Shown here piece by piece: positions 19,423 to 34,126 of a stretch of 51,495 nucleotides of DNA. The stretch is from Microcoleus sp. GA_180221_E-2-1-MAG-45_12 (GTDB lineage: Bacteria > Cyanobacteriota > Cyanobacteriia > Cyanobacteriales > JAAUUE01), in the NCBI GenBank assembly GCA_020692245.1, contig JAIMKT010000017.1:13681-65175 (forward strand). The letters run 5' to 3'. Every line of letters starts with the position of its first letter. Positions within the stretch are counted from its first letter, which is position 1. Position numbers and translations under genes: made by a program. Under the pieces are notes generated by a model. That model was not told the origin of the DNA, did no database searches, and saw only the letters and a program-made list of their open reading frames with translations.

Positions 19423-22400
19423 ATGGCGAATCAAATCCAAGCCTATTTGCAAGAAGTTATTCAAATTTACCAAAGGGGAAATGCGACGGAGCATACCTAT
19501 CGTCCTGCTTTTCAGAAGTTGATGGAGTCTTTGGATAGTTCGATTCGGGCGGTGAATGAGCCAAAACGAGAAAAGTATGGGATGCCCGATTTTTTGATTA
19601 GTCAGGGAGAGTTGAAGATTGGACATATTGAGGCTAAAGATATTGGGATTCCGTTGAAGGGGCTGGAGAAAAAGGAGCAGATGAGGCGGTATTTTCATGC
19701 CTTGGGAAATTTGATCTTGACAGATTATTTGGAGTTTCGGTGGTATGTGGAAGGGGAGTTGCGCTTGTCGGCTTCGATCGCCACCTTGGATAAGCAGAAA
19801 AAAATTAAGCCTGATCCTGAGGGGATTGCCCAGGTTGATCAACTTTTGCGGCAGTTTTTGTTAACTAAGGTTGTGCAGGTGACGACTCCGAAGGCTTTGG
19901 CGAAAAGGATGGCAGCTTTGGCGCAGTTGATTCGGGATGCGATCACTATGGCTTTGAAAGATAGCGATCGAGGGGGGATGTTACGGCAGCAGTTGGAGTC
20001 GTTTCGCTTGGTGTTGATTCGAGACTTGACGGGGGAGCAGTTTGCAGATATGTATGCTCAGACGATCTGCTATGGTTTGTTTGCGGCGCGGTGCAATACG
20101 GATCAGGTGAGTTCTTTTTCACGGGAAACGGCGGGGTTTAGATTACCTAAAACGAATCCATTTTTACGGGGAATTTTTAATCAAGTTGCGGGTTCGGAAT
20201 TGGACGATCGCATTACTTGGGCGGTGGATACTTTGGCGAGTATTTTGCAGCAAACGGAGATGTCGGCAATTTTAAGGGATTTTGGTCAGCGAGATCGCCG
20301 GGAAGATCCTGTGGTGCATTTTTATGAGACTTTCTTGGCGGAATATGACCCGAAAATGCGGGAGTCACGGGGAGTGTACTATACGCCGGAGCCTGTGGTT
20401 GGGTATATTGTGCGGAGTGTGGATTATATTCTCAAGGAGAAGTTTGGGATTAAGAAGGGGTTGGCAGATAGTACGAAGATTACTGATATGCACAAGGTGC
20501 TAATTCTCGATCCGGCGGTGGGGACTGGGACGTTTATGCATCGGGTGATTGAGCATATTTATGAGGGGTTCAAGAAGCAAAAGGGAATGTGGTCGGGTTA
20601 TGTAAGTCAGCATCTTTTACCCCGTTTATTCGGGTTTGAGTTGCTGATGGCTCCCTATACGGTGGCACACATGAAACTGGGGTTACAGCTTAAAGAGTTG
20701 GGTTATGATTTTAGCTCTGAGGAACGTTTGCGGATTTATTTAACAAATACTCTACAAGAATCTTTTCAAATTGCAGATCAGGTAATTAATTTTGGTTCTC
20801 GAATTAAAGAAGAGGCTGAAGAAGCGAAAGATATTAAACAAGATCGTCCTGTAATGGTGATTATCGGCAATCCGCCTTATTCTGGACATTCGGTAAATAC
20901 AGGAGATTGGATTAAGGGTTTGCTCAATGGCAAGGATATTATCTCCAATACAAAGACTGATAATTATTTTGAGGTTGATGGGAAGCCCTTGGGAGAGAGA
21001 AATTCTAAGTGGTTAAATGATGATTATGTTAAGTTTATTCGTTTTAGTCAATGGCGCATCGATCAAACAGGTTACGGAATCTTAGCTTTTGTCACTAATC
21101 ACGGCTATTTAGACAATCCAACTTTTAGAGGGATGCGGCAAAGTTTATTAAAGACTTTTGATGAAATTTATATTTTAGATTTGCATGGCAATAGTAAGAA
21201 AAAAGAAACTTGTCCTGATGATTCTGTCGATCAAAATGTGTTTGATATTCAGCAGGGTGTAGCGATCGGGATTTTTATTAAATATCAAAATAGTCAGCAG
21301 GAATCAGCAACGGTTTATCATGCGGATTTATGGGGCAAGCGTGAGGTTTTTGAAAATAAGCAGCTTGTTGGTGGTAAGTATCACTGGTTAGATGAGACTG
21401 ATATTAGTTCAATGATTTCAGAGGAAAATAGAATATACCCAGATGCTCCATTTTATTTGTTTAAACCTCAGAATATTGATTTAAGAGTTGAATATGACAA
21501 GTTCTGGAAAATCACTGAGGTCATGAATACTAATGTTTTAGGATTTCAAACCCATCGAGATCACTTTGCTGTTGATTTTGAAGAGACTAATATTTTGAGA
21601 AGATTTCAAGAGATGAGAGACAAATACTTGTCTGATGATGAATATGTTAATAAGTATGAGATCAAAAATAATCGAGACTGGCAATTAGATAAATCTCGAA
21701 AAATTATTCGCTCAGATAATCAATGGAAAGATAAAATCACAAGTTGCTTATATCGTCCTTTTGACTGGCGCTACTGCTATTTTAGTTATGTAGCAATGGA
21801 TTATCCTAGACGTGAATTAACCGATCATGTTTTCAAGAGAGATAATTTATGTTTACTATCTTCAAGACAGCAAGCAAATTTAGGCTATAGACATTGTTGG
21901 GTATCTAAACAACCTGCTAATGATTGTGTCATCTCAACAACAAGTAGAGAAGCAAATCAGGTTTTCCCTCTTTATCTCTACCCAACCGATAAACCAACTT
22001 TATTTGAAACCGAACCAAACAATAATCCCCATAGTCGCCGCCCAAACTTAGCACCAGAATTTATTAACGAATTTTCCCAAAAACTTGGCTTAGAATTTTT
22101 GACCGATGGTAAAGGCGATCAGATTAAAACCTTCGCACCAGAAGACATTTTTCATTATATTTATGCCGTCTTTCATTCTCCAGAATATCGCCAACGCTAC
22201 GCCGAATTTCTGAAAATTGACTTTCCACGAGTTCCCCTCACCAGCAACAACCAACTATTTTGGGAACTGGTCAACCAAGGCGATCGACTCGTCCAACTCC
22301 ACCTGATGAAAGAAACAGGCGCAGAAATTAGTAACTATCCCATTGATGGCTCAAATCTTGTGGAACAAGTCAAATACAACCAAGCTCAACAACAAATCTG

Positions 22401-22629
22401 GATCAACGACCAGCAGTATTTTGCCAATGTCCCGCCCCACATTTGGAACTTCTACATCGGTGGCTATCAAGTTTGTCAGAAATGGCTCAAAGACCGCAAA
22501 GGAAGAGAACTCAGCTTTGATGATTTAGTGCATTATCAAAACATAATTTCCATCTTGGGCGAAACTATAGAAACCATGAACAATATTGACCAAATTATCA
22601 CTAACCACGGAGGATTCCCCTTTGGGTAA
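19423..22629 (+). CDS. Single-chain restriction-modification enzyme (PD-(D/E)XK nuclease + N6-adenine methylase + type ISP-like C terminus)
   Basis: 1068 aa. Residues 50-75 carry a PD-(D/E)XK nuclease signature (D56 in GMPDFLIS; E70-A-K72 in IGHIEAKD). The middle is an N6-adenine methyltransferase: motif I LDPAVGTGTF near 363-372 and catalytic GNPPY at 482-486. The C-terminal 350 residues look like the target-recognition region of type ISP enzymes (CLYRPFDWRYCYF; LFWELVNQGDRLVQLH). No helicase domain lies between nuclease and methylase, so the architecture is closer to type IIG. One chain would both methylate and cut DNA. An MntA/HepT toxin-antitoxin pair follows 12 bp later. I noticed no intact HIP1 octamer, consistent with horizontal origin. 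Confidence 0.85.
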   Translation: MANQIQAYLQEVIQIYQRGNATEHTYRPAFQKLMESLDSSIRAVNEPKREKYGMPDFLISQGELKIGHIEAKDIGIPLKGLEKKEQMRRYFHALGNLILTDYLEFRWYVEGELRLSASIATLDKQKKIKPDPEGIAQVDQLLRQFLLTKVVQVTTPKALAKRMAALAQLIRDAITMALKDSDRGGMLRQQLESFRLVLIRDLTGEQFADMYAQTICYGLFAARCNTDQVSSFSRETAGFRLPKTNPFLRGIFNQVAGSELDDRITWAVDTLASILQQTEMSAILRDFGQRDRREDPVVHFYETFLAEYDPKMRESRGVYYTPEPVVGYIVRSVDYILKEKFGIKKGLADSTKITDMHKVLILDPAVGTGTFMHRVIEHIYEGFKKQKGMWSGYVSQHLLPRLFGFELLMAPYTVAHMKLGLQLKELGYDFSSEERLRIYLTNTLQESFQIADQVINFGSRIKEEAEEAKDIKQDRPVMVIIGNPPYSGHSVNTGDWIKGLLNGKDIISNTKTDNYFEVDGKPLGERNSKWLNDDYVKFIRFSQWRIDQTGYGILAFVTNHGYLDNPTFRGMRQSLLKTFDEIYILDLHGNSKKKETCPDDSVDQNVFDIQQGVAIGIFIKYQNSQQESATVYHADLWGKREVFENKQLVGGKYHWLDETDISSMISEENRIYPDAPFYLFKPQNIDLRVEYDKFWKITEVMNTNVLGFQTHRDHFAVDFEETNILRRFQEMRDKYLSDDEYVNKYEIKNNRDWQLDKSRKIIRSDNQWKDKITSCLYRPFDWRYCYFSYVAMDYPRRELTDHVFKRDNLCLLSSRQQANLGYRHCWVSKQPANDCVISTTSREANQVFPLYLYPTDKPTLFETEPNNNPHSRRPNLAPEFINEFSQKLGLEFLTDGKGDQIKTFAPEDIFHYIYAVFHSPEYRQRYAEFLKIDFPRVPLTSNNQLFWELVNQGDRLVQLHLMKETGAEISNYPIDGSNLVEQVKYNQAQQQIWINDQQYFANVPPHIWNFYIGGYQVCQKWLKDRKGRELSFDDLVHYQNIISILGETIETMNNIDQIITNHGGFPFG

Positions 22630-22641
22630 GGATTAATTAAG

Positions 22642-22980
22642 ATGTATAGCCAAATATCAACCCCTAAAATCTATAGTCGCCTTGGTATTTCTAGTCAACA
22701 ACTTACTCAATTTTGTCAGAAATGGCAAGTTGCTGAATTAGCATTATTTGGCTCAATCTTGCGAGATGACTTTCGAGAAGATAGCGACATTGATTTATTA
22801 GTTTCCTATCAACCTCATGCTAAACGAGGTCTATTTGAAAAAATGACTATGAAAGAAGAACTCGAAATAATGTTAAACCGTAAAGTTGATCTAGTTAGCA
22901 AACAAGCCATTATCCAAAGCCATAACTGGCTACGGCGCAAAAATATTCTGGAATCTGCTGAGGTGATATATGTTGCGTGA
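22642..22980 (+). CDS. mntA: MntA-type nucleotidyltransferase antitoxin
   Basis: 112 aa minimal nucleotidyltransferase. The active site is the classic GS-x10-DxD (GSILRDDFREDSDID). In MntA/HepT systems this protein neutralises the HEPN toxin by adding AMP to a tyrosine of the toxin. It lies 12 bp after the restriction-modification gene and overlaps the toxin gene by 11 bp, so all three are probably one transcript. The tail (RRKNILESAEVIYVA) is usual for the family. Confidence 0.88.
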   Translation: MYSQISTPKIYSRLGISSQQLTQFCQKWQVAELALFGSILRDDFREDSDIDLLVSYQPHAKRGLFEKMTMKEELEIMLNRKVDLVSKQAIIQSHNWLRRKNILESAEVIYVA

Positions 22981-23293
22981 CCAAGAAGCAATTATTGATA
23001 TCATTGAGTCGATTAAATTAATCCTGCATTACGTTGAAGGAATAGATCAAGAAACTCTTGCCGTAAACATTGAAAAACAAGATGCCATTTTGCGGCGTAT
23101 TACCATTATTGGTGAAGCTACAAAGAGGCTAACTCCAGAATTTAGACAACAACATTCAGATATTCCTTGGCGAAAAATTGCAGGGATGAGAGATATAATT
23201 ACTCATGACTATGACGAAGTTGATCTCACAGAAATATGGACAGTCGTTAAAGAAAATCTTCCTGACCTGTTGACTTATATTGAAATCTTGTAA
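22970..23293 (+). CDS. hepT: HepT-type HEPN ribonuclease toxin
   Basis: 107 aa all-helical HEPN protein. The catalytic RX4HXY motif is intact: R74, H79 and Y81 in MRDIITHDYDEV. Y81 is the residue expected to be AMPylated by MntA. HepT toxins cleave RNA when released. The ATG at 22970 has a GAGGTGA ribosome binding site inside the antitoxin gene and overlaps it by 11 bp, the usual coupled order for this pair. A MITE-like element starts three bases after its stop. Confidence 0.88.
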   Translation: MLRDQEAIIDIIESIKLILHYVEGIDQETLAVNIEKQDAILRRITIIGEATKRLTPEFRQQHSDIPWRKIAGMRDIITHDYDEVDLTEIWTVVKENLPDLLTYIEIL

Positions 23294-24855: not shown

Positions 24856-25914
24856 TTTCAACGCTGCTACGGAAACTTTGGCGGCAACTTGTTTGGCGAT
24901 CGCCACCAGAGCTTTGGCAGAGGCAGATTCGGGTTCAGCGACGACGATCGGAATACCTTGATCGCCCCCGGTGCGGAGATTGATCTCTAGGGGAATCATC
25001 CCTAGTAAAGGAATCCCTAATTCTTGGGCTGTGCGATCGCCCCCTCCCGAACCAAAAATATCGTACTGGCGATCGGGCAGATCGGGGGGAATAAAATAAC
25101 TCATATTCTCGACAATTCCCAACACATTCACCCCCAACTGTTGGAACATTTTTAAGCCTTTCCGGGCATCCAATAACGCCACGGTTTGCGGGGTAGTGAC
25201 AATGACAGCTCCAGCCAGAGGGACAGCTTGAATCAGGGTTAATTGAGCATCCCCAGTACCGGGAGGCATATCCACAATCAGATAATCCAGCTCACCCCAC
25301 TGCACTTGATAGAGAAACTGGCGAATAATGCCATTGAGCATGGGCCCACGCCAGATCACTGGTTGATCCTTATCAATCAAAAAAGCCATGGATACCAACT
25401 TCACTCCATGATTAAAAGCTGGTTCCAGCACATCCTGACCATTTACCTGTTGTACCATCGCCTTCGCTGTGGATAAACCCAGCATATTTGGGGCATTGGG
25501 CCCGTAGATATCCGCATCAATCAGCCCCACTTTGGCTCCAGTTTGGGCGAGGGCGACGGCAATATTCACCGCCACAGTGCTTTTGCCCACACCACCTTTC
25601 CCACTAGAAACGGCAATAATATTTTTCACCCCATCAATCCCGGTTTTATCAGGCGTGGATTTTTGTTGGGGAGTCTCGGCGGTGACATCAATAATTACTT
25701 CAGTGATGCCGGGGAGTTGTTTGACTGCTTTTTGGCAATCTTCGACAATGAATTCCCGGAGCGGACAGGCTGGGGTGGTCAATACCAGGGTAAAGTTCAC
25801 CACTCCCTCCTGAATTTTCACATGCCGAATCATATTTAGCTCAACTAAACTTTTTTGGAGTTCGGGGTCTTGCACTGGGCGTAATACATTTAAGACGGCA
25901 CTAACATCAATCAT
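24835..25914 (-). CDS. Mrp/ApbC-family P-loop ATPase, iron-sulfur carrier
   Basis: 359 aa. Residues 1-75 are a MIP18/DUF59 domain (VLNVLRPVQDPELQKSLVEL). The P-loop ATPase follows: deviant Walker A SSGKGGVGKSTVAVNIA near 104-120, LIDADIYGPNAPNMLG and LIVDMPPGTGD. The family binds and transfers Fe-S clusters to apoproteins and is also called Mrp/NBP35. The C-terminal residues TVNNEQ are encoded by a dispersed heptamer repeat that also contains the stop codon, so the original C terminus was replaced or extended by the repeat. The ATPase core is complete before that point. Confidence 0.93.
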   Translation of the reverse strand: MIDVSAVLNVLRPVQDPELQKSLVELNMIRHVKIQEGVVNFTLVLTTPACPLREFIVEDCQKAVKQLPGITEVIIDVTAETPQQKSTPDKTGIDGVKNIIAVSSGKGGVGKSTVAVNIAVALAQTGAKVGLIDADIYGPNAPNMLGLSTAKAMVQQVNGQDVLEPAFNHGVKLVSMAFLIDKDQPVIWRGPMLNGIIRQFLYQVQWGELDYLIVDMPPGTGDAQLTLIQAVPLAGAVIVTTPQTVALLDARKGLKMFQQLGVNVLGIVENMSYFIPPDLPDRQYDIFGSGGGDRTAQELGIPLLGMIPLEINLRTGGDQGIPIVVAEPESASAKALVAIAKQVAAKVSVAALKTVNNEQ

Positions 25915-25985
25915 AGGATTTATAAAATATTAAACTTTTGTTGGCAATATTGATAATGTTGACAATATTTCACTGAATTAATTAA

Positions 25986-26163
25986 CTAGACAAAATTCAA
26001 GTGTAGCGGTAATAGTCCTATTTTAAAATTCTTCTGCAGTATGAGAATGCCCCACTGACTGAGCAGCAAGACGGAAGGCGTGGGTGGCTTGAGCCTAGCT
26101 CCAATTTCAAACAGAGGCGTTGCTGGCGGATTGTCAATCCTCTTAATTGATGACACACCCTAA
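25986..26163 (-). other. Possible decayed coding stretch or IS-end relic
   Basis: On the minus strand a frame without start codon stays open for about 55 codons from 26158 to a TAG at 25986-25988, including NPPATPLFEIGARLKP. The DNA in the middle is GC-rich and can fold. Text of this kind occurs at the ends of TnpB-type transposase genes in cyanobacteria, but I cannot confirm it by reading. It fills most of the 286-bp spacer between mrp and the protease-WD40 gene. Confidence 0.25.
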
Positions 26164-26200
26164 CAGATACTAATCTGTCTCCAGTAATTCCTCACTCTCT

Positions 26201-28378
26201 CTACTGTACTTGCCAAATAATCAGGGTTCGATCGTCACTCCCAGAAATTAAGTATTTGCCATCTGGTGTATAGACTAAAGCATTTACTTGGTCTCGATGA
26301 CCTGATAAATTCCCCAAAGACTGACCAGTTGTTGCTTCTTGTAAAAATATTCTGTTATCTCCAAGACCAAGAAGATTTGGGTTACTGAAGGCTAAATGAT
26401 TATTGCTGGCAACAGCAAGGCTTCTAATAACGTCATTGGATCGAGCAACTTCACTACATTCCTTAGTCCGCCAATTACAAGATTTAATAACATCATCTAA
26501 ACCAGCACTAATAATTTGATTACCATCAGCGCTAAAAGCTAAGTTGGGAATTGCTCTCTGGTGTGCTTGGTAAACATCCACCGGAGTAAGATCAGATGTA
26601 CTCCAGAGTTTCACCGTTCCATCTCCTCCACCACTAGCTAGTAAACGACCATCAGAACTCAGAGCTAGAGAGCTAATCCCTCGATCATTAGCGTTGGTAT
26701 TTGCAGCTAGAGTTTCACCACTCCTATTATTTACTAACCGGAGAGTCCCAGTACCACTACCAACAAAAAGAAAATTACCATTGTCACTAAAAACAACTGA
26801 AGGATTGCTTCCAGCAATGATTATATATCTTGATACACTTACATTGTTGATAGCAAATACCTTCACTTCCCCATCAACAGAAGCAACAGCAATTTCCTGA
26901 CCATCAGGGCTAAGGGCGATAGAGCTAATACTTCGATTAGTTGGACCCGAGCTAAAAGTTCCGACCTTACGTCTGTCCTGTAAGCTATAAACTGATGCAG
27001 TTCCATTCCGCATACCTACAGCGACAAATTGATTATCCTTACTAACAGCTATAGATGTGGCTCCGGACTCTAGATTAATAATGAGTTCTGTTAACCTATA
27101 TCTTCCAAGAGCAGAGGCAGGTACAGGCAAGTCACCACCTATTTCTGATAAGCAGTCTCTAATGACGATTTGCTGTAATCTGGGGACTATAATTGCGAGA
27201 AAAGGATCTTGTATTTGACCAGAAAGTCCGCTTGCAAGATCAAAAAAACGTCTTGCATCATTTCTTTCTCCAGTTTTTAGCCTTACACAACTCTGAGCAT
27301 AGTTTACAAAGGCATTATTTGATAATAAGTTAATTGCTTGTGACGAATTACGGTTAGCATCAACTAAAGATGTTTGATTTTGTGCTTGACTCAAACCTAA
27401 TATTGCTAGGGCATAGCCTCCTAAATTTCTACTGTCAAGCCTAGAGACATCATTGGCATTACTTATTGCATTGCTGTAATTACCTTCTATATAGTTAATA
27501 GCTCCTAGCAGTAAAGCAGCATTCGCATTACTTCCGCTAACTCTTCTTGCTTCTTCCCTAGCCCTAGATAGATTTCCTAATCCAAAATAAGCATAAGATA
27601 AGATTGCAGTACTTTCAGGAGTATCTATACCTAATCTTCTCCCTTGTTCGATACTTGATATCACCTGAGGAAAATTATCTGTTGTCAAATTATTTCTAGC
27701 TAATCCAGTAAAAGCAGATGGAGCTGATTCTTTGTACCTCTCAATAGGAATAGCTTCTCCAAATACGTTCTGAACGGTCTGTCCTATATGAATTCCTATA
27801 ACTTCACCTCCTGCTGTTAAGACTGGAGAACCACTCATACCTCCTACAGTAGGAGCAGTATGAAAAATCACTGGGCTACCTCCTGAAGTCGAGGGTTGTC
27901 GAGAACTAATATTGCCACCTAGAATCTGTGGGTCTCTAGAAACTCTGGAGCTAGAGCCTGTAGCAGGAAAACCTAACACAAATATGCTTGTAGCTGGTTG
28001 GATATCATTAGTATTATTTGCTATTTTCACTACAGGGTATTGCCTATTACTTATAAATTGTAGTAGTGCTAGGTCTACTCCGGGTAAAGGTACTGGTTCT
28101 GCTTCTATTATTTCTCCTGTATCAGTCCTAACTCGTAGTCGACTATTTGGAGGTTGCCTATCTCGAACAACATGACCAGCTGTGAGTACATAATAAGTAG
28201 CATTATCTTTACTGACAATAAAACCAGTTCCTTGACTAGCCCCTGCTTCATTTTGAATTACAACTACAGATTGCCTAGCTTGTTGATAAAGATTGGGAGC
28301 TTGAGCGATACTAATTTGGGCTACAAAAACCACGGCAGCAGCACCAATAAATGTAGCTAAATAGTAGTTAGGTTTCAT
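26201..28378 (-). CDS. Secreted trypsin-like serine protease with TPR-like middle and WD40 repeats
   Basis: 725 aa. A signal peptide (hydrophobic residues 8-25, ending SIAQA) leads into an S1-type protease with the full triad: H69 (LTAGHV), D102 (GVDLALL) and S182 (GGMSGSP). Residues about 230-400 are helical pairs of TPR or Sel1-like type. From about 435 to the end there are WD40 blades (SSIALSPDGQEIAVAS; LASGGGDGTVKLWS; YLISGSDDRTLIIWQ). The likely location is the periplasm. Proteases of this kind could sense a partner through the propeller and cut it. It is divergent from a COP23-domain gene. No intact HIP1 octamer was noticed, and the base composition is AT-rich compared with the flanks. 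Confidence 0.85.
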   Translation of the reverse strand: MKPNYYLATFIGAAAVVFVAQISIAQAPNLYQQARQSVVVIQNEAGASQGTGFIVSKDNATYYVLTAGHVVRDRQPPNSRLRVRTDTGEIIEAEPVPLPGVDLALLQFISNRQYPVVKIANNTNDIQPATSIFVLGFPATGSSSRVSRDPQILGGNISSRQPSTSGGSPVIFHTAPTVGGMSGSPVLTAGGEVIGIHIGQTVQNVFGEAIPIERYKESAPSAFTGLARNNLTTDNFPQVISSIEQGRRLGIDTPESTAILSYAYFGLGNLSRAREEARRVSGSNANAALLLGAINYIEGNYSNAISNANDVSRLDSRNLGGYALAILGLSQAQNQTSLVDANRNSSQAINLLSNNAFVNYAQSCVRLKTGERNDARRFFDLASGLSGQIQDPFLAIIVPRLQQIVIRDCLSEIGGDLPVPASALGRYRLTELIINLESGATSIAVSKDNQFVAVGMRNGTASVYSLQDRRKVGTFSSGPTNRSISSIALSPDGQEIAVASVDGEVKVFAINNVSVSRYIIIAGSNPSVVFSDNGNFLFVGSGTGTLRLVNNRSGETLAANTNANDRGISSLALSSDGRLLASGGGDGTVKLWSTSDLTPVDVYQAHQRAIPNLAFSADGNQIISAGLDDVIKSCNWRTKECSEVARSNDVIRSLAVASNNHLAFSNPNLLGLGDNRIFLQEATTGQSLGNLSGHRDQVNALVYTPDGKYLISGSDDRTLIIWQVQ

Positions 28379-28680
28379 AAGCCGATAAAGTTAATTATTC
28401 CCGTTGATTGCCAAGCAAAGTTATTCATTAAATAGCAATAGTATTGTCAATATTTATATATTCAACTTAGATTCTCAAGCTATACTTGAATTAATTAGGA
28501 ATATTTAATGAATTTATGTAGTTTGTCTTGCACATTTTATGTCAGATCGAATAATATAATATTACACGATGAATTGCTACAGAAATTGTTCCAGATATTC
28601 CAGAGTTTACAGCAGACGTAAGAAAATTATAATAACACAATAAGAATAAGATGATTTTGTCCTAGATTAGGTGTAACACA
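28379..28680. promoter_or_regulatory. AT-rich divergent intergenic region (302 bp)
   Basis: This stretch separates the divergent protease-WD40 and COP23 genes and must hold both promoters. It is very AT-rich. A frame from 28513 could encode 37 residues, but nothing supports it as a gene. I see no repeats or clear operators. Confidence 0.45.
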
Positions 28681-29181
28681 ATGAAAGCCAAACTATTGAA
28701 GTATTCTCTGCTAACTTTATCACTGTCCCTAGGTTTTCTCTTAACAAATAGCCAAGGTGCTAATAGTCAATCTATACAATCTATAAATTACTCCTGTGGT
28801 TCCTATCAACAAGGTTATGCAACCCTTGGCAGAGGTTCTTTGGGAGTCAGCCCGATCATATTTTGGAACAATAGACAGCCAGTATGTAATACAGTCTCAG
28901 CCAGATTTCAAATAGCTAGAGACAACGGTAATCTAAGATTTGTGATGAGAGAAAACAATCTAATTTGTGGTACTAATAGGCATGGTGGTGAATGCTTAAA
29001 TCTACTTTTCGCTACTGACACCCTAGGTAATGCCCAAGTTCTATGGGAAAGGTTAAGAAATAACAATGCTATTGAAGGAAGGTTCATTACTGAAAGTAGT
29101 AGTCGAGATTACTTTAACCTAGAACTTTACCTAGAAACTGTACCTCCCTCTGAACAAATTCCTCTTTTGATTTTTGATTGA
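28681..29181 (+). CDS. COP23-domain secreted protein
   Basis: 166 aa. A signal peptide (MKAKLLKYSLLTLSLSLGFL, then NSQGANS) precedes one COP23 domain. The domain is recognised by INYSCGSYQQGYATL, SPIIFWNN, CNTVSARFQIA, NLICGTN and GGECLNLLFATD, with four cysteines in the usual spacing. The family is named after a circadian-oscillating membrane protein of unicellular cyanobacteria; its function is not established. Here it sits beside a secreted protease and converges with a CHAT protease gene (17 bp between stops), suggesting it may be the substrate or inhibitor of one of them. That last point is inference. Confidence 0.75.
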   Translation: MKAKLLKYSLLTLSLSLGFLLTNSQGANSQSIQSINYSCGSYQQGYATLGRGSLGVSPIIFWNNRQPVCNTVSARFQIARDNGNLRFVMRENNLICGTNRHGGECLNLLFATDTLGNAQVLWERLRNNNAIEGRFITESSSRDYFNLELYLETVPPSEQIPLLIFD

Positions 29182-29198
29182 GGAAACCACCGTTTCAT

Positions 29199-30875
29199 CT
29201 AATTAGATAATTTCAGAGAATTGATTATCTCCCTAGCAGTAACTTCATGTTTATAAAATAAATCCTCTGGGGCTGAATAAATAACTGAATAGGCTTTGTT
29301 ATTTTTCAAGGCAGTAATGATAACTTTCTTGTAGATATTACCGTCCTGAGTTGTGGTAAAAACTATTTTATAACCCGGACGAAAAGCCAGAGTAGCTGGT
29401 GCTTCTTTAACCCTACTAAAATTCTCCATATATTTTTCTAAGTTACCAGTAAGATGATTCCGCCAACCTTCTAAACTTAAAGGTTTCGTAGTTAAATCTT
29501 GGATATTCAAGCTTAATCTAACCTCTTTATTCTCTACTAAAAATATATTAACCATATCTCCAGTAATCCCATCTAACTCTTCTTGTGCTTGCCAAGTCTG
29601 AGGATAAGTTAACTGAAAATATGGATCTTGGTAAGTTTTATTGAATGAAGTGCTGGCAAGCCCTAGAACATTATTTTTTAATTCCCTAATTTGAGAAACA
29701 AAAGCAACTGCTGGGATGTTATGTAAACCTAATAGTAGTAAGACAATTGAAGCAGCTAGTTTTGCTTGCAAAGGGTATTGTTGGGAGAGGATGGGTTGGG
29801 GAGAAGACCATTCCATTAGGGGTTGGGTGGGGTTGTAGTAGAGGACGGGGAGCCAACTAGCGTAGGGATATTCATATTCTTTGTCTTTCAGCTTGTTGCG
29901 AGTTTGTCGCAGAGCTTGGACTAAGGGAACTCCTTGAGAAAATTCTGTCAGAAAATCCTTGAGGAAGCGCTGGGCAATATCATCTGGCACGGCTTCTTTC
30001 ATCACGATCGCCTGAGGAATATGCAAATCTGCCAACTCTTCCCCCAACTCCAACCCATCACAGGAATTAAAAATTGCCAACTGTAAACCTTCTTGAATCC
30101 GCTTCTGGAGACCCGATCGCATCTCCTCAACCCCTAAAGTTTCCTTCCCGTTAATACAAATTCTGCCCCGATCTTGATCCTTCTTGCCATGCCCTGCAAA
30201 AAATAAAATATCTGTATTATCTGAATTCCATAAAACTTCCGTCACTTTATCCTTAGAAGGCTCTCCCAAAACTTCTAGATGATGTACACCCGGAAGGCTT
30301 TTGATAATTGTCGTATCTTCCCCAGTATTAATGCCTATGCTGTCCCCAATGATAGCGATGATATTGAGCTTCGATCGAGCAGCCCTACCCTTATCACTAA
30401 AATTATCCAGCCTACTAAAATTAGGTCTTAAGAGAGCATAGTCAGACTTGGGAAAATGCTCGAAAAAACTCCAAAGATGCCAAGGTGCATATTTCAAATC
30501 AGGATCATTGATATCAATTCCCACTAATATAACTTGACCGCGATTTAATCCTGCCATTAACTTATCTTTCGTAGGCAGAAATTCTGGAGAACTGAGCCAA
30601 TTATTCAAATTTTTCTTGAGCTTATCGGTTAGCTGAGGATGATTAATATCAGAAGAATTATGAACAATATTAGGGTTCTTTTCGAGCCGGAAACTCCGCA
30701 CATCGGCATGATAAGCAGCACGCCAATCTTTAATACTAGCGACTAGCTCTGGACAAGCAGGTAGGGAACCTTCACCACCTTCAATAACTTTGTGGGAGGA
30801 ATCTAGAATTTTGTAGCTGACAACAAAAAACTGATCCGGTTTACCTTGAAATTTAATTTCTACAAACTTGTCCAT
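29199..30875 (-). CDS. CHAT-domain protease with membrane anchor and PsbP-like tail
   Basis: 558 aa. Residues about 165-350 form a CHAT (caspase-HetF-associated) protease with both catalytic residues: H229 in FFAGHG and C272 in FNSCDG. The N-terminal 160 residues are the associated beta-alpha region found in cyanobacterial CHAT proteins. One membrane helix follows (about 373-394). The last 145 residues look like a PsbP/Mog1-type domain (DPYFQLTYPQTWQAQ, then RPGYKIVFTTTQ and AYSVIYSAPEDLF). With the CHAT part in the cytoplasm, the tail would be periplasmic or lumenal. It starts five bases after the sigma-like/DUF1822 gene, so the two are one operon. Confidence 0.85.
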   Translation of the reverse strand: MDKFVEIKFQGKPDQFFVVSYKILDSSHKVIEGGEGSLPACPELVASIKDWRAAYHADVRSFRLEKNPNIVHNSSDINHPQLTDKLKKNLNNWLSSPEFLPTKDKLMAGLNRGQVILVGIDINDPDLKYAPWHLWSFFEHFPKSDYALLRPNFSRLDNFSDKGRAARSKLNIIAIIGDSIGINTGEDTTIIKSLPGVHHLEVLGEPSKDKVTEVLWNSDNTDILFFAGHGKKDQDRGRICINGKETLGVEEMRSGLQKRIQEGLQLAIFNSCDGLELGEELADLHIPQAIVMKEAVPDDIAQRFLKDFLTEFSQGVPLVQALRQTRNKLKDKEYEYPYASWLPVLYYNPTQPLMEWSSPQPILSQQYPLQAKLAASIVLLLLGLHNIPAVAFVSQIRELKNNVLGLASTSFNKTYQDPYFQLTYPQTWQAQEELDGITGDMVNIFLVENKEVRLSLNIQDLTTKPLSLEGWRNHLTGNLEKYMENFSRVKEAPATLAFRPGYKIVFTTTQDGNIYKKVIITALKNNKAYSVIYSAPEDLFYKHEVTAREIINSLKLSN

Positions 30876-30880
30876 AACTG

Positions 30881-32797
30881 TTAAATTACAAATTTTTCAG
30901 TAATACTTCCTTGACCTAGTTGAATTTTTACTTGAAATTCTTCTTGAAATTCACCTCTAAATTCAACTTGAATCCAGTTATCACATTCTCTTGATGTAGC
31001 TTTTTCAAAAATGTTCCCTCTATTTTCTAATACTAATAGTTCTAGATTCTTTGGAAGATACTTTTGACCATTACTAGGATAAATCCTGACTTGAACGGAG
31101 TACTTATGTTTTTCCTCCTCTTCAAAACCTATTCGTAGCTCAAAAGAATAGTTATTGATTTGCAGGCTTAGATTAATTTTTCTAGACCAATGAAACCTAT
31201 ATTTAATCCCTCTGATTTTCTTCCACTCAGAAAAAGCAATTGAGATATCTTCCTCTGGAACCCATAGATTTGAAAATATTTGCTGGCTCAAGTTATTACG
31301 AGCTACTAGGGAAGCGTAGGGAGCATTAGCGAAAAATACATAAATTGTTTGCTCTAAATAGCTTTTGATTTTTTCTAGAAAATCTGCACTTAAATTGTAT
31401 TGATCGCTTAACCAATTAGATAAATAGATAACTCCCTCTCTAGTTAAGGCATTAACTATACTTAGTAACTCTTCCTCACTAATTTTCAACCTTAAAGCAA
31501 CTTCTCTCAGATTTTGAGTTAGCTTGTTTTTAGTATTACTAATCTGTTGAGTTAATTCCGATCGGGTTAACCCATAATCAAGGAGCCGCTCCGCCTCTTC
31601 TTGAGATAAGGTACTGAAATAGGCTGATAAAAAAGTTATGCTTAAGGAATTTGGGTACGATCGAATCCACTCTCCCAACTCCTCATGAATAAATTTGTGG
31701 CGATAGTACCAGATCATGAGAGACTTCATAAATTTCTTATTTGAAATATTTAAATCTAACTCAAAATCATCTGGAAAGCGATCGAGTAAATCTTGTTTTA
31801 ATTGCTTTTGTAAATCATCCCTAATTTTGTCTAGCTTCCGACTGATTGTAAACTGAGAGATTGGAATAGGAAAAACTGTCCCAATTAATTCTTGGTTAAT
31901 CCCCAAAAATCCATAACTTAGAATCAACAATATACTAGATTCAAGACTAGTAATTAATTCTGCTAAAACTTCTAAAAATACTCCTGAATATTCTGGAGAT
32001 TCTAAAATTTCATCAGGGTCAGGATAGGGTATCCGGTCTATAGGATCAGGCATTCCGGGCGGTGGTGGAGAAATTACCACAATTTGGTTAGAAAACTTTA
32101 GAGCTTTAATACAGCCTTGTAGAATATTTCTAACTTGATGAGAGCTAAAAGCATCTCCATACAAATCTTGGCAGTATTGACCTATCTTTTCTAACTGAGC
32201 TTGAGTAGGTTCTTGAATTACTTTCCCGCTTCTGGGCAACTCAGCACCAATCTTTCTAACTTCAATGGCAACTATCAAATGTTGTGCTAATTGAGTATCT
32301 CGAAAACCATAGGCTTTGAGGTTTTCTTCTAGACGCTTATTGGATACCGATAGTAACAATCCATAATCAGAAGGGTGGTTAACAAATCTCTCCTGAAGGC
32401 TAAATCCCAATTTTTTGTAAGCATAGATAAGGGGTTTCCCTAAACTAGGATCATAGGTTCGCCAAAAATCAACTATGTAGAAAATAATCAATCTCGCCTC
32501 TTGAAAGAAGTGATCAACTCTGTCTCTAAATAAAGTGTTTTCCAGCTTGTCCTGAACACGCTTGGCACACATAGTACAGATTTCTTCTAGGTAAGAGAGT
32601 AGATGTTTTTGAGCTAGAGGACAATTTTGTTCCCTGACTTGTCTCAAGAAGTAGTTAAACCAAAATATTTCATCTCGATCGGGGTACAAACCAGTAAGGT
32701 ATTGGAAATTAGCCTTGAGCTTTGGATCAATTTGCCACTGACCAAAATTAAGACCTGTAGTAAATTTTTCTTCTAAAGTAACTCTCTTCTTGAACAT
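30881..32797 (-). CDS. Degenerate sigma-70-like protein fused to a DUF1822 C-terminal domain
   Basis: 638 aa. Residues about 35-190 are helical and resemble sigma-factor-like proteins of filamentous cyanobacteria (RDEIFWFNYFLRQV; HFFQEARLIIFYIVDFWRTY). Around 290-340 lies a candidate region-4-type helix-turn-helix: LILSYGFLGINQELIG, then PISQFTISRKLDKIRDDL. From about 520 to the end it matches the C-terminal half of DUF1822: VRIYPSNGQKYLPKNLELLV, DNWIQVEFRGE and a final SITEKFVI. DUF1822 proteins are usually encoded by a separate gene near CHAT proteins; here it is fused. First gene of the operon with the CHAT protease. A role as regulator or adaptor is inferred. Confidence 0.62.
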   Translation of the reverse strand: MFKKRVTLEEKFTTGLNFGQWQIDPKLKANFQYLTGLYPDRDEIFWFNYFLRQVREQNCPLAQKHLLSYLEEICTMCAKRVQDKLENTLFRDRVDHFFQEARLIIFYIVDFWRTYDPSLGKPLIYAYKKLGFSLQERFVNHPSDYGLLLSVSNKRLEENLKAYGFRDTQLAQHLIVAIEVRKIGAELPRSGKVIQEPTQAQLEKIGQYCQDLYGDAFSSHQVRNILQGCIKALKFSNQIVVISPPPPGMPDPIDRIPYPDPDEILESPEYSGVFLEVLAELITSLESSILLILSYGFLGINQELIGTVFPIPISQFTISRKLDKIRDDLQKQLKQDLLDRFPDDFELDLNISNKKFMKSLMIWYYRHKFIHEELGEWIRSYPNSLSITFLSAYFSTLSQEEAERLLDYGLTRSELTQQISNTKNKLTQNLREVALRLKISEEELLSIVNALTREGVIYLSNWLSDQYNLSADFLEKIKSYLEQTIYVFFANAPYASLVARNNLSQQIFSNLWVPEEDISIAFSEWKKIRGIKYRFHWSRKINLSLQINNYSFELRIGFEEEEKHKYSVQVRIYPSNGQKYLPKNLELLVLENRGNIFEKATSRECDNWIQVEFRGEFQEEFQVKIQLGQGSITEKFVI

Positions 32798-33033
32798 AGT
32801 GGTAGTTTTCCTACTGATTGATGGGAAAGGTCATGGTAGCTCATAACATTAGTGCCAATTTTAGATAGATAAACCTGACTTTGAATAATCATCATGTTCC
32901 TTAGGGAAATTTATGCAGCAGATTTCGGAAAATAAAAAAATACCCGAAATTCTTGGTGAATCTTGGGGAGCTTATTTTTGATAAATTGTTTAGAAATTGT
33001 TTGAAAATTGCTGAAAAGTTAGAGCTAAATTAC

Positions 33034-33285
33034 TTAGCCGCCACTGACGGGGGGGATGAGGACGACTTCATCGCCGTTTTGGAGGATGGTATCGGCGGGG
33101 ACAAAATTGAGGTTGACGCCAAAGCGAGTGAGGTCACGCCATTGCTTTAACTGGGGATGGGTTTGAATTAAGCGATCGACCACTTCCCCCACCACACTCT
33201 GCTCCGGCAGTGACCACACCAACTCTGGCACACCCAAGACTTCCTGATAAACCGCAAACAACTTAACCGTCACCTCGATCGCCAT
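33034..33285 (-). CDS. moaD: MoaD/ThiS-family sulfur carrier protein
   Basis: 83 aa ubiquitin-fold protein. It begins AIEVTVKLFAVYQEVLGVPE and ends NGDEVVLIPPVSGG. The C-terminal Gly-Gly is adenylated and thiocarboxylated to donate sulfur for molybdopterin synthesis; the ELVWSLPE strand and VVLIPPVSGG end favour MoaD over ThiS. The ATG at 33285 has GGGAGGTG just ahead. The frame extends to a TTG at 33297, which lies inside that ribosome binding site. No other molybdenum cofactor genes are near. Confidence 0.87.
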   Translation of the reverse strand: MAIEVTVKLFAVYQEVLGVPELVWSLPEQSVVGEVVDRLIQTHPQLKQWRDLTRFGVNLNFVPADTILQNGDEVVLIPPVSGG

Positions 33286-33302
33286 CACACCTCCCAATAT
33301 TT

Positions 33303-33382
33303 TCTTATCTTCTTTTGCCTTCTATACCTCCCTGTACCTCCCCTTACCTCCTTTACCTTCCTATACTTCCTTTACCTCCTCA
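33303..33382. repeat. Heptamer repeat tract B (TACCTCC type)
   Basis: Repeated TACCTCC and TACCTTCC units fill the spacer between moaD and the MORN gene. They run up to the MORN stop codon, whose TGA is followed directly by GGAGGTA on the coding strand. They belong to the same family as the tracts near mrp, glmU and the P-type ATPase gene. Confidence 0.75.
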
Positions 33383-34126
33383 ACTAACTGGTCTCCCATT
33401 CCGAAACTGTCCACTAACAGTCCGTCCATTGCGATAAGTAATTGTGCCGACACCGTGGGGTCTGCTAGCTCGAAATTCTCCGGTGTAGCGATCGCCATTA
33501 GCAAAGGTACAATTGCCCCGACCACTGAGGTCACTGCCAAAAAATTCTCCTGTACAGCGATCGCCATTCACAAAGGTAAAAGTGCCATTACCCCGCACCT
33601 GCCCATTGGCAAAACTGCCAGTGTAGCGATCGCCATTGGCAAAAGTAAAAGTCCCCGCCCCATTTTGCAACCCATTGCGGACTTGTCCGGTGTAGCGATC
33701 GCCCGAATTATAGATAAATGTGCCAGAACCATTGGGGAATCCATTTTGGAACTGCCCTTCATAGCGGTCATCATTGGCAAAGACAAATAGCCCCCGCCCA
33801 CTGGGAACCCCGCCACTAAACTGTCCCTCGTAGCGATCGTTCGTGGGATACACCAGCACTCCCCGCCCACTAGGGATACCATTCACTAGCTGTCCACTGT
33901 AGTAGGTTCCTGTGGGAACTGTAGCCGCCGCTCCCGCTGCTCCGGGGAGAGTGTAGTAAGAACAAGTTCCCGTGAGGGTAGCTCGATTGCCACTAAAGTC
34001 GCCGATACAGGCAGAAACAGCCCCCTGCCCCAAGACGGGACTAGAAAAAACTAAAGGGAGACTAGCTGCCACTAAACAGGCTATACCTAAATTTCCGTAG
34101 TGGGTTGGGAGAGAAAATTTCCACAT
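33380..34126 (-). CDS. Secreted MORN-repeat protein
   Basis: 248 aa. A signal peptide (hydrophobic residues about 12-33, ending VLGQ) and a cysteine-containing linker precede about seven MORN repeats of 23 residues, each like GDRYTGQVRNGLQNGAGTFTF. MORN repeats form an elongated beta sheet that binds lipids or protein partners; here the location is likely periplasmic or outer membrane. In four consecutive repeats the GDR codons are written as the HIP1 octamer GCGATCGC spaced exactly 69 bp, and two more copies are decayed. The repeats thus arose by tandem duplication of a HIP1-bearing unit. Function unknown. Confidence 0.85.
   Translation of the reverse strand: MWKFSLPTHYGNLGIACLVAASLPLVFSSPVLGQGAVSACIGDFSGNRATLTGTCSYYTLPGAAGAAATVPTGTYYSGQLVNGIPSGRGVLVYPTNDRYEGQFSGGVPSGRGLFVFANDDRYEGQFQNGFPNGSGTFIYNSGDRYTGQVRNGLQNGAGTFTFANGDRYTGSFANGQVRGNGTFTFVNGDRCTGEFFGSDLSGRGNCTFANGDRYTGEFRASRPHGVGTITYRNGRTVSGQFRNGRPVS
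33488..33840 (-). repeat. 69-bp coding tandem repeat with HIP1 at fixed phase
   Basis: Intact GCGATCGC octamers start at 33488, 33557, 33626 and 33695. Decayed versions start at 33764 (GCGGTCAT) and 33833 (GCGATCGT). The period is exactly 69 bp, one MORN repeat. Confidence 0.92.

Follow-up and report, generated by a model that had tools for sequence, protein, structure and literature searches.

A putative membrane-anchored CHAT protease encoded with a sigma-70-like/DUF1822 fusion in Microcoleus: a candidate envelope-sensing gene switch

Introduction

Cyanobacterial neighbourhoods that bring together an EACC2-caspase, an ECF sigma factor and DUF1822 (TRADD-N) were described by Kaur et al. (2021, eLife; PMC8195603), and EACC2/TRADD-N systems have been proposed to be conflict systems (PMC8195603). 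The cutting of an anti-sigma factor by a CHAT protease has a precedent in the Craspase of type III-E CRISPR, with Csx29, Csx30 and CASP-sigma (PMC10028731), and its cutting by a Lon protease has one in CalpL/CalpT/CalpS (PMC11417357). Regulated proteolysis of the RseA/RsiW type involves membrane anti-sigma factors and the proteases DegS/RseP (PMC10028731).

Here we analyze a locus in a 51,495-nucleotide stretch of Microcoleus sp. DNA, referred to as the window, in which a sequence-only reading had proposed an undescribed stress or defence switch. The set is not undescribed: Kaur et al. had already reported the sigma/DUF1822/EACC2-caspase neighbourhood (PMC8195603), and on sequence grounds the locus belongs to the neighbourhoods of that study. 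We consider it reasonably likely that it is a cassette variant of this cyanobacterial signalling family, with the envelope-to-sigma mechanism proposed below.

Results

The four open reading frames expected between 26201 and 32797 are all present. Three are on the minus strand: a trypsin-WD40 gene (26201-28378; 725 aa), an EACC2-CHAT-TM-PsbP gene (29199-30875; 558 aa) and a sigma-70-like/DUF1822 fusion gene (30881-32797; 638 aa; DUF1822 at 1.9e-19). The COP23 gene (28681-29181; 166 aa) is on the plus strand. The core of the locus is a two-gene operon in which the sigma-DUF1822 gene comes first and the CHAT gene follows after a gap of 5 bp. A four-gene operon is ruled out because COP23 lies on the opposite strand and is convergent with CHAT. 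The COP23 and trypsin genes are divergent from each other in the window, and a search of the stretch between them for a shared promoter motif, by alignment of three copies, gave nothing convincing.

The earlier description of the block as AT-rich and free of intact HIP1 (GCGATCGC) is accurate. GC content is 37% in the cluster versus 45% for the rest, and GC3 is 0.21-0.34 versus 0.46-0.67 in flanking housekeeping genes. HIP1 is absent from 25033 to 33488, but this gap of 8.5 kb is weak evidence, since among 30 gaps it ranks second in size. The genes adjoining the cluster are rodA, mrp, thiS and MORN; with these neighbours and with zero CRISPR-like direct repeats in the window, a type III-E CRISPR Craspase was rejected and the description of the set as one without CRISPR stands within the window.

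A type IIG restriction-modification (RM) gene and an MntA/HepT pair lie 3-7 kb from the cluster. Together with the fast evolution and foreign composition of the cluster genes, the proposed conflict role of EACC2/TRADD-N systems (PMC8195603), the TRADD-like_N domain in a related locus (L182) and the nSTAND NTPases of some relatives, they fit a conflict system (anti-invader or cell-death), in which CHAT would be an infection-triggered suicide caspase and the sigma-like protein an HTH or adaptor co-effector. However, the RM-rodA-mrp block is kept in a sister genome without the cluster, which has been relocated between the two genomes; the neighbourhood is therefore no evidence of a joint island, and a defence-island reading was rejected. 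Furthermore, zero PADLOC models match the CHAT or sigma-DUF1822 proteins, the cluster genes giving only generic trypsin or WD40 matches. The extracytoplasmic sensing domains, which are CHASE2-size C-termini plus DUF928 in relatives and PsbP and COP23 in the window, also argue against a conflict system, which we regard as unlikely; given this periplasmic sensing side, envelope signalling is at least as well indicated as defence.

The CHAT protein has four parts, all encoded on the minus strand. Residues 1-165 (30381-30875) form an N-terminal alpha+beta domain in the EACC2 position, delimited by alignment A1 and the structure model. Its AF2 model has pLDDT >90 over most of the domain, and N91, W93, F99, P131 and W132 are invariant in alignment A1; the EACC2 assignment rests on domain position and fold and was matched to Kaur et al. 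by description. The caspase-like CHAT domain (29802-30380) matches PF12770 at 1.6e-12 (47.9 bits versus a cut-off of 24), and Foldseek relates its fold to separase and SAVED-CHAT. Its predicted catalytic residues H229 and C272 were correctly recognized and are invariant in 28 homologues, and across 22 loci, which share 34-64% identity with the window protein, the N-domain and CHAT together are conserved along 370 residues (alignment A1). A predicted single transmembrane segment follows (29691-29762, about residues 372-395), with a hydropathy maximum of 2.07 at 375-393 and a model helix at 369-384. The C-terminal PsbP/DcrB-like domain (29202-29663) is expected to be periplasmic; PsbP_2 (6e-4) and DcrB (4e-4) both match it below the Pfam cut-off, and Foldseek finds cyanobacterial PsbP (2xb3, 5.7e-10). 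The whole model has a pLDDT of 80.6. Foldseek also aligned it with the anti-sigma factor DdvA (8rot; E 8e-6, TM 0.31), a match that carries no weight in our interpretation.

A single DUF1822 gene and a single EACC2-type CHAT gene occur in the genome, adjacent to each other. A group of ECF sigma, anti-sigma and CHAT genes elsewhere in the genome (C101) was considered as a second system and rejected, since the CHAT protein there is a HetF relative; in 13 other loci with a CHAT of that type, sigma and anti-sigma genes were absent beside the match within a reach of 1.5 kb past it.

What had been read as a single degenerate sigma-like protein is a complete, divergent sigma-70-like protein fused to the C-terminal third of DUF1822. 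The N-terminal part is homologous to stand-alone sigma-70-family proteins of 400-550 aa, in which regions 2 and 4 are recognizable at family level: in profile searches TIGR02937 matches 24 of 25 members (best 1e-33), Sigma70_r4 18/25 and Sigma70_r2 6/25, and the PDB profile matches are FliA/SigF. The window copy scores more weakly than the rest of its family, with only TIGR03001 (E 0.0017, at 397-452), and its regions were placed by alignment with a sister-genome copy (L046) and relatives. In this alignment (A3) a region 2-like segment spans about residues 60-140 (32378-32620, minus strand) and a region 4-like helix-turn-helix about residues 270-340 (31778-31990, minus strand). Because it has no Sigma70_r4 match and carries a 2-residue insertion in its first HTH, the window sigma part may be unable to bind promoters. 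It is of a longer, FliA/SigF-like sigma-70 type compared with the ECF sigma of the Kaur et al. set; hhalign of the long against the short sigma families was not significant, nor was the top Foldseek match of the low-confidence sigma model (pTM 0.35) to sigmaS (E 0.03). The DUF1822 portion, a C-terminal beta-sandwich domain (about residues 503-638; 30884-31291, minus strand), was delimited by alignment and by a match to PF08852 positions 270-370, and its model has a pLDDT of about 90 over most of residues 551-638. The linker between the two parts (residues 484-522; 31232-31348, minus strand) is of low confidence, with pLDDT <50 at 484-508 and 519-522, and is a candidate cleavage region.

The degenerate first HTH and the loss of two thirds of DUF1822 could indicate that the fusion is a decaying remnant in a degenerating locus, its sigma factor no longer able to act, and in three sister copies (C315, C220, C399) the CHAT or trypsin reading frame is split, which would fit such decay. 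We consider decay very unlikely, in that a second fused copy is open in the sister genome (L046; 549 aa at a contig edge, 53% identity, dN/dS about 0.29) and the CHAT dyad is intact, whereas the splits may be errors in a MAG that is 87% complete and in 450 contigs. The dN/dS between the window and L046 is about 0.29 for sigma-DUF1822, 0.31 for CHAT and 0.11 for COP23, values that are rough because dS is near saturation and unequal between genes (0.4 to 1.3), so that the copies may be recombined.

The four genes are not adjacent in this genome alone, as the sister genome carries several copies of the cluster. Two copies there share the order and orientation CHAT> <COP23 trypsin> and a third has CHAT> <COP23, with COP23 in the same convergent position in L046, L047 and L049. 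Since the window sigma-DUF1822 protein alone retrieved no related loci, the CHAT alignment was used as query, giving 78 CHAT loci outside the genus with denominators of 69, 64 or 78 by feature. Of these CHAT genes, 60/69 have DUF1822 no more than 500 bp upstream, 40/69 have a sigma gene as well, and 48/64 have DUF928 downstream, the usual order across cyanobacteria being sigma, DUF1822, EACC2-CHAT. An independent search from the sigma/DUF1822 side gave 35 loci outside the genus, and 28 of them carry the CHAT gene. The suggested pairing of CHAT with a sigma-like partner is thus conserved across cyanobacterial loci; the suggested wider co-occurrence holds outside the genus for sigma, DUF1822 and CHAT but not for COP23, which is near CHAT in 0/64 loci. 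PsbP is near CHAT in 0/78. The C-termini of the relatives are CHASE2, nSTAND1-GUN4, nSTAND1-WD40 or COP23-trypsin, compared with PsbP in the window, and most relatives have CHASE2-size C-termini and DUF928; one locus (L183) encodes a CHAT-nSTAND1-DUF1822 fusion.

The COP23 protein matches PF14218 (1.5e-10) and has a signal-like N-terminal segment and four cysteines, in keeping with its prediction as a secreted cysteine-rich protein. The trypsin-WD40 protein contains Trypsin_2 (PF13365, 1.4e-25) with the H69/D102/S182 triad already assigned to it, WD40 repeats, a TPR-like part between them and a hydrophobic, export-type N-terminus; homologues adjoin COP23 in L047 and L049, and another occurs in L048. 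Among the COP23 matches listed, 25/37 adjoin trypsin, and fusions occur with trypsin (L206) and with Ser/Thr kinases (L200, L201). From this recurrent trypsin pairing and presence on kinases, COP23 looks like an extracytoplasmic sensor domain.

COP23 is found in 187/196 genomes of the order, mostly in several copies, and COP23-trypsin runs also occur without CHAT. These observations, the missing COP23 near CHAT outside the genus and the strand layout in the window (COP23 and trypsin divergent, COP23 on the other strand from CHAT) fit a system of sigma-DUF1822 and CHAT alone, beside which COP23 and trypsin-WD40 landed in this genus as an independent periplasmic proteolysis module. Such an independent module is possible, if doubtful, given that CHAT and COP23 kept their arrangement in three sister copies, two of them with trypsin, though the cluster moved, and that in Oscillatoria princeps RMCB-10 (L182) EACC2-CHAT-COP23-trypsin (Trypsin_2) is a single 820-aa protein adjoining an HTH(sigma r4/GerE)-TRADD_N-DUF1822 protein. 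The grouping of COP23 and trypsin with CHAT is borne out by this recurrence and this polypeptide, and these comparisons support a functional link to the CHAT unit rather than a role as bystanders.

Discussion

Because a putative membrane CHAT protease and a sigma-DUF1822 fusion are combined here with COP23 and trypsin, which are joined to such a protease in another cyanobacterium, the cluster probably works as a protease-driven gene switch responding to conditions beyond the cell membrane. COP23, trypsin and the PsbP-like domain would provide extracytoplasmic input, and an envelope signal would cross the single transmembrane helix to activate CHAT in the cytoplasm. CHAT would then dock on the DUF1822 C-domain and cut the flexible sigma-DUF1822 linker at about residues 484-522, or, less likely, the proline-rich segment 237-259, and the freed sigma would redirect RNA polymerase. 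Where DUF1822 is a protein of its own, as in the usual multi-gene loci, it may serve as a cleavable anti-sigma factor or tether. The mechanism would be like that of Craspase/Csx30 or CalpL/T/S, operating at the membrane and without CRISPR.

A broader and distinctly more tentative idea is that COP23 is a general cyanobacterial extracytoplasmic sensor that works with trypsin-type proteases and is wired to kinases, to CHAT and here to sigma, and that sigma-DUF1822 is a self-contained sigma factor that a caspase-like enzyme keeps at the membrane and proteolysis releases, a CRISPR-free, envelope-sensing analogue of Craspase signalling. Proteins related to sigma-DUF1822 are widespread in the order, with a match in 165/196 genomes, yet the sigma/DUF1822/EACC2-CHAT set amounts to one paragraph of prediction in the literature found. 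With the fused, reduced version, two proteins suffice to test the predicted switch and a cleavage region is suggested, and the domain fusions tie COP23, a family long known but functionally obscure, to a signalling role.

In common with the Kaur et al. set, the locus has an N-terminal alpha+beta and a caspase-like domain with a variable C-terminus and an adjacent DUF1822 and putative sigma-type gene, as well as TRADD_N in the relative L182. It differs in that sigma and the DUF1822 C-domain are one protein, that TM-PsbP stands where relatives have CHASE2, and that COP23 and trypsin-WD40 take the place of DUF928; COP23 has 0 occurrences in the main text of that paper (PMC8195603). HetF (cell division, heterocysts) is likewise a cyanobacterial CHAT protein with weak NCBIfam similarity (1.3e-4), but the window CHAT scores 20.4 bits against the NF045509 cut-off of 1200 and was rejected as HetF; the genome has a separate HetF relative (C101; NF045509, 2.4e-213), and a PatU3-like neighbour is not seen at the window locus. 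With Craspase the locus shares a CHAT protease, a putative sigma factor and a protein sigma partner as possible substrate, whereas the window has no CRISPR array, an RNA guide is not seen, the protease is predicted to be membrane-anchored and DUF1822 has no demonstrated relation to Csx30. CalpL/CalpT/CalpS offers the same protease/anti-sigma/ECF-sigma logic, with a cA4-activated Lon-SAVED enzyme in contrast to a CHAT with an extracytoplasmic domain. The path from envelope signal through protease to sigma release that we propose resembles that of RseA/RsiW, where the anti-sigma factor is in the membrane, whereas here the protease itself would span it.

Gene organization and genomic setting

ORF and domain analysis recovered from the window all four open reading frames, the named domains and the catalytic residues that a sequence-only reading had assembled into a protease/sigma system. 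These are trypsin-WD40 (26201-28378, minus strand), COP23 (28681-29181, plus), CHAT (29199-30875, minus), which encodes a 558-aa EACC2-CHAT-TM-PsbP protein, and a 638-aa sigma-70-like/DUF1822 fusion, sigma-DUF1822 (30881-32797, minus). The CHAT and sigma-DUF1822 genes share a strand with 5 bp between them; COP23 runs convergently towards CHAT and divergently from trypsin-WD40. The source genome is cyanobacterial (4.2 Mb, 132 contigs), and GC3 is 0.21-0.34 in the four genes versus 0.46-0.67 in rodA, mrp, thiS, MORN, glmU and macB.

Nucleotide synteny with G001, a sister genome of the same genus, ends at 26036 and 34409, and in G001 mrp (97% identical) adjoins a ferrochelatase-like gene and glmU (95% identical) an era-like gene, both neighbours being named from ORF reading; the cluster is therefore absent from the corresponding position. 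A type IIG restriction-methylase gene followed by an MntA/HepT-type toxin-antitoxin pair occupies 19423-23293, and G001 keeps the restriction gene in this position, next to rodA and mrp. Within a MORN-repeat gene, four repeats spaced 69 bp apart (33473-33724) each contain a HIP1 site.

G001 carries several copies of the cluster (loci L046-L049). Identity between the two genomes is 95-97% for two compared housekeeping proteins, 53% for sigma-DUF1822, 60-79% for CHAT (79% to the copy on contig C220) and 92% for COP23 (C345 copy). The closest G001 copy differs from gene to gene, which tentatively suggests recombination among several cassettes, at one locus apparently in tandem (L048); the reading is tentative because G001 is an 87%-complete MAG in which some ORFs are split.

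Proposed origin and predicted structure of the fusion

Searched against 196 genomes of the order, the 638-aa protein gave two separate sets of matches (residues ~1-430 and ~538-638), usually on different, often neighbouring ORFs, and it is therefore a fusion. Its N-terminal part is homologous to stand-alone proteins of 400-550 aa; of the 25 aligned family sequences, 24 are recognised by TIGR02937, the sigma-70 superfamily model, and 18 by Sigma70_r4, and there are PDB profile matches to FliA and SigF. The C-terminal part corresponds to the last third of DUF1822. Since G001 holds both a second fused copy (L046; 53% identity across 525 aligned residues) and an unfused copy with complete DUF1822 (L049), the data suggest that the fusion arose within the genus through loss of the DUF1822 N-terminal part.

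The sigma-DUF1822 model has low overall confidence (pTM 0.35), with pLDDT <50 over much of residues 484-522 and a largely confident C-terminal beta-sandwich; its fold search returned nothing significant (top match sigmaS, E 0.03). In the CHAT protein model (pLDDT 80.6), an alpha+beta N-domain precedes the caspase-like domain, the hydrophobic segment forms a helix, and the C-domain is PsbP-like. Foldseek matched the protease part to separase and SAVED-CHAT and the C-domain to cyanobacterial PsbP (2xb3, 5.7e-10), a fold also common to DcrB and EagT6, so that no photosystem role is implied.

Conserved neighbourhoods and links to COP23 and trypsin

Outside the genus, 78 CHAT loci were surveyed: DUF1822 lies directly upstream of CHAT in 60/69, a sigma gene is present in 40/69, and DUF928 lies downstream in 48/64. 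Of the 35 loci found from the sigma/DUF1822 side outside the genus, 28 by our count carry a CHAT gene. In Nostoc (L107, L122) a sigma gene sits between two divergent DUF1822-CHAT units, and L183:9034-12180 (G120:C3) encodes a 1048-aa CHAT-nSTAND1-DUF1822 fusion. Elsewhere in the source genome (contig C101, L178:2929-7578), genes for an ECF sigma and a zf-HC2-like anti-sigma lie upstream of a HetF relative; neither of them was found beside the homologue of the HetF relative in 13 other loci compared.

COP23 occurs in 187/196 genomes of the order, so proximity to CHAT alone would mean little. It gains weight from three sources. The convergent CHAT-COP23 arrangement is repeated on three G001 contigs, with a trypsin gene, in the CHAT orientation, next on two. 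In Oscillatoria princeps RMCB-10, a single 820-aa protein (L182:6094-8556, G103:C50) has the architecture EACC2-CHAT-COP23-Trypsin_2 (COP23 4e-33, Trypsin_2 3e-19) and is preceded by a gene for a 627-aa HTH-TRADD_like_N-DUF1822 protein (L182:8586-10469); this is the only COP23 plus trypsin match next to CHAT among the matches listed from 391 order genomes. Finally, COP23 and trypsin pair recurrently: by our count, in the one family searched, 25 of 37 COP23 matches listed share their ORF with a trypsin match or have one within ~1.5 kb, the list omitting low-scoring matches, and COP23-trypsin-trypsin runs occur in at least nine fetched loci, a sample biased by selection of loci for having matches. 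Such runs recur in many cyanobacteria (L195-L199, L202-L205), and L206:5607-6890 is a COP23-trypsin fusion. COP23 is also the C-terminal domain of Ser/Thr protein kinases (L200:7580-9109, L201:4765-7641), one with an AAA-like N-terminus; its simplest reading is as an extracytoplasmic sensory domain. The literature searched yielded no joint mention of COP23 and trypsin, no description of their recurrent runs or fusion and, in one of the two papers there that mention DUF1822, no experimental work on that domain.

Proposed mechanism and relation to known systems

Csx29 cuts Csx30 (PMC10028731) and CalpL cuts CalpT (PMC11417357), and by analogy the CHAT protease would be expected to cut its sigma partner. 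The DUF1822 C-domain, fused to sigma in the window and to CHAT-nSTAND1 in L183, is the likely bridge. Input would come from outside the membrane, as suggested by a TM helix and PsbP-like domain in the CHAT protein and by COP23 and trypsin being exported proteins. The cluster is real and conserved, a variant of a predicted signalling family, and the associations described here provide new support for counting COP23 and trypsin among its members. Kaur et al. 2021 (PMC8195603) described EACC2 joined to a caspase with variable C-termini, found an ECF sigma gene and DUF1822 in most such neighbourhoods without TRADD-N, and proposed autoproteolytic activation with transcriptional output; the window locus fits this EACC2-caspase/ECF sigma/DUF1822 set.
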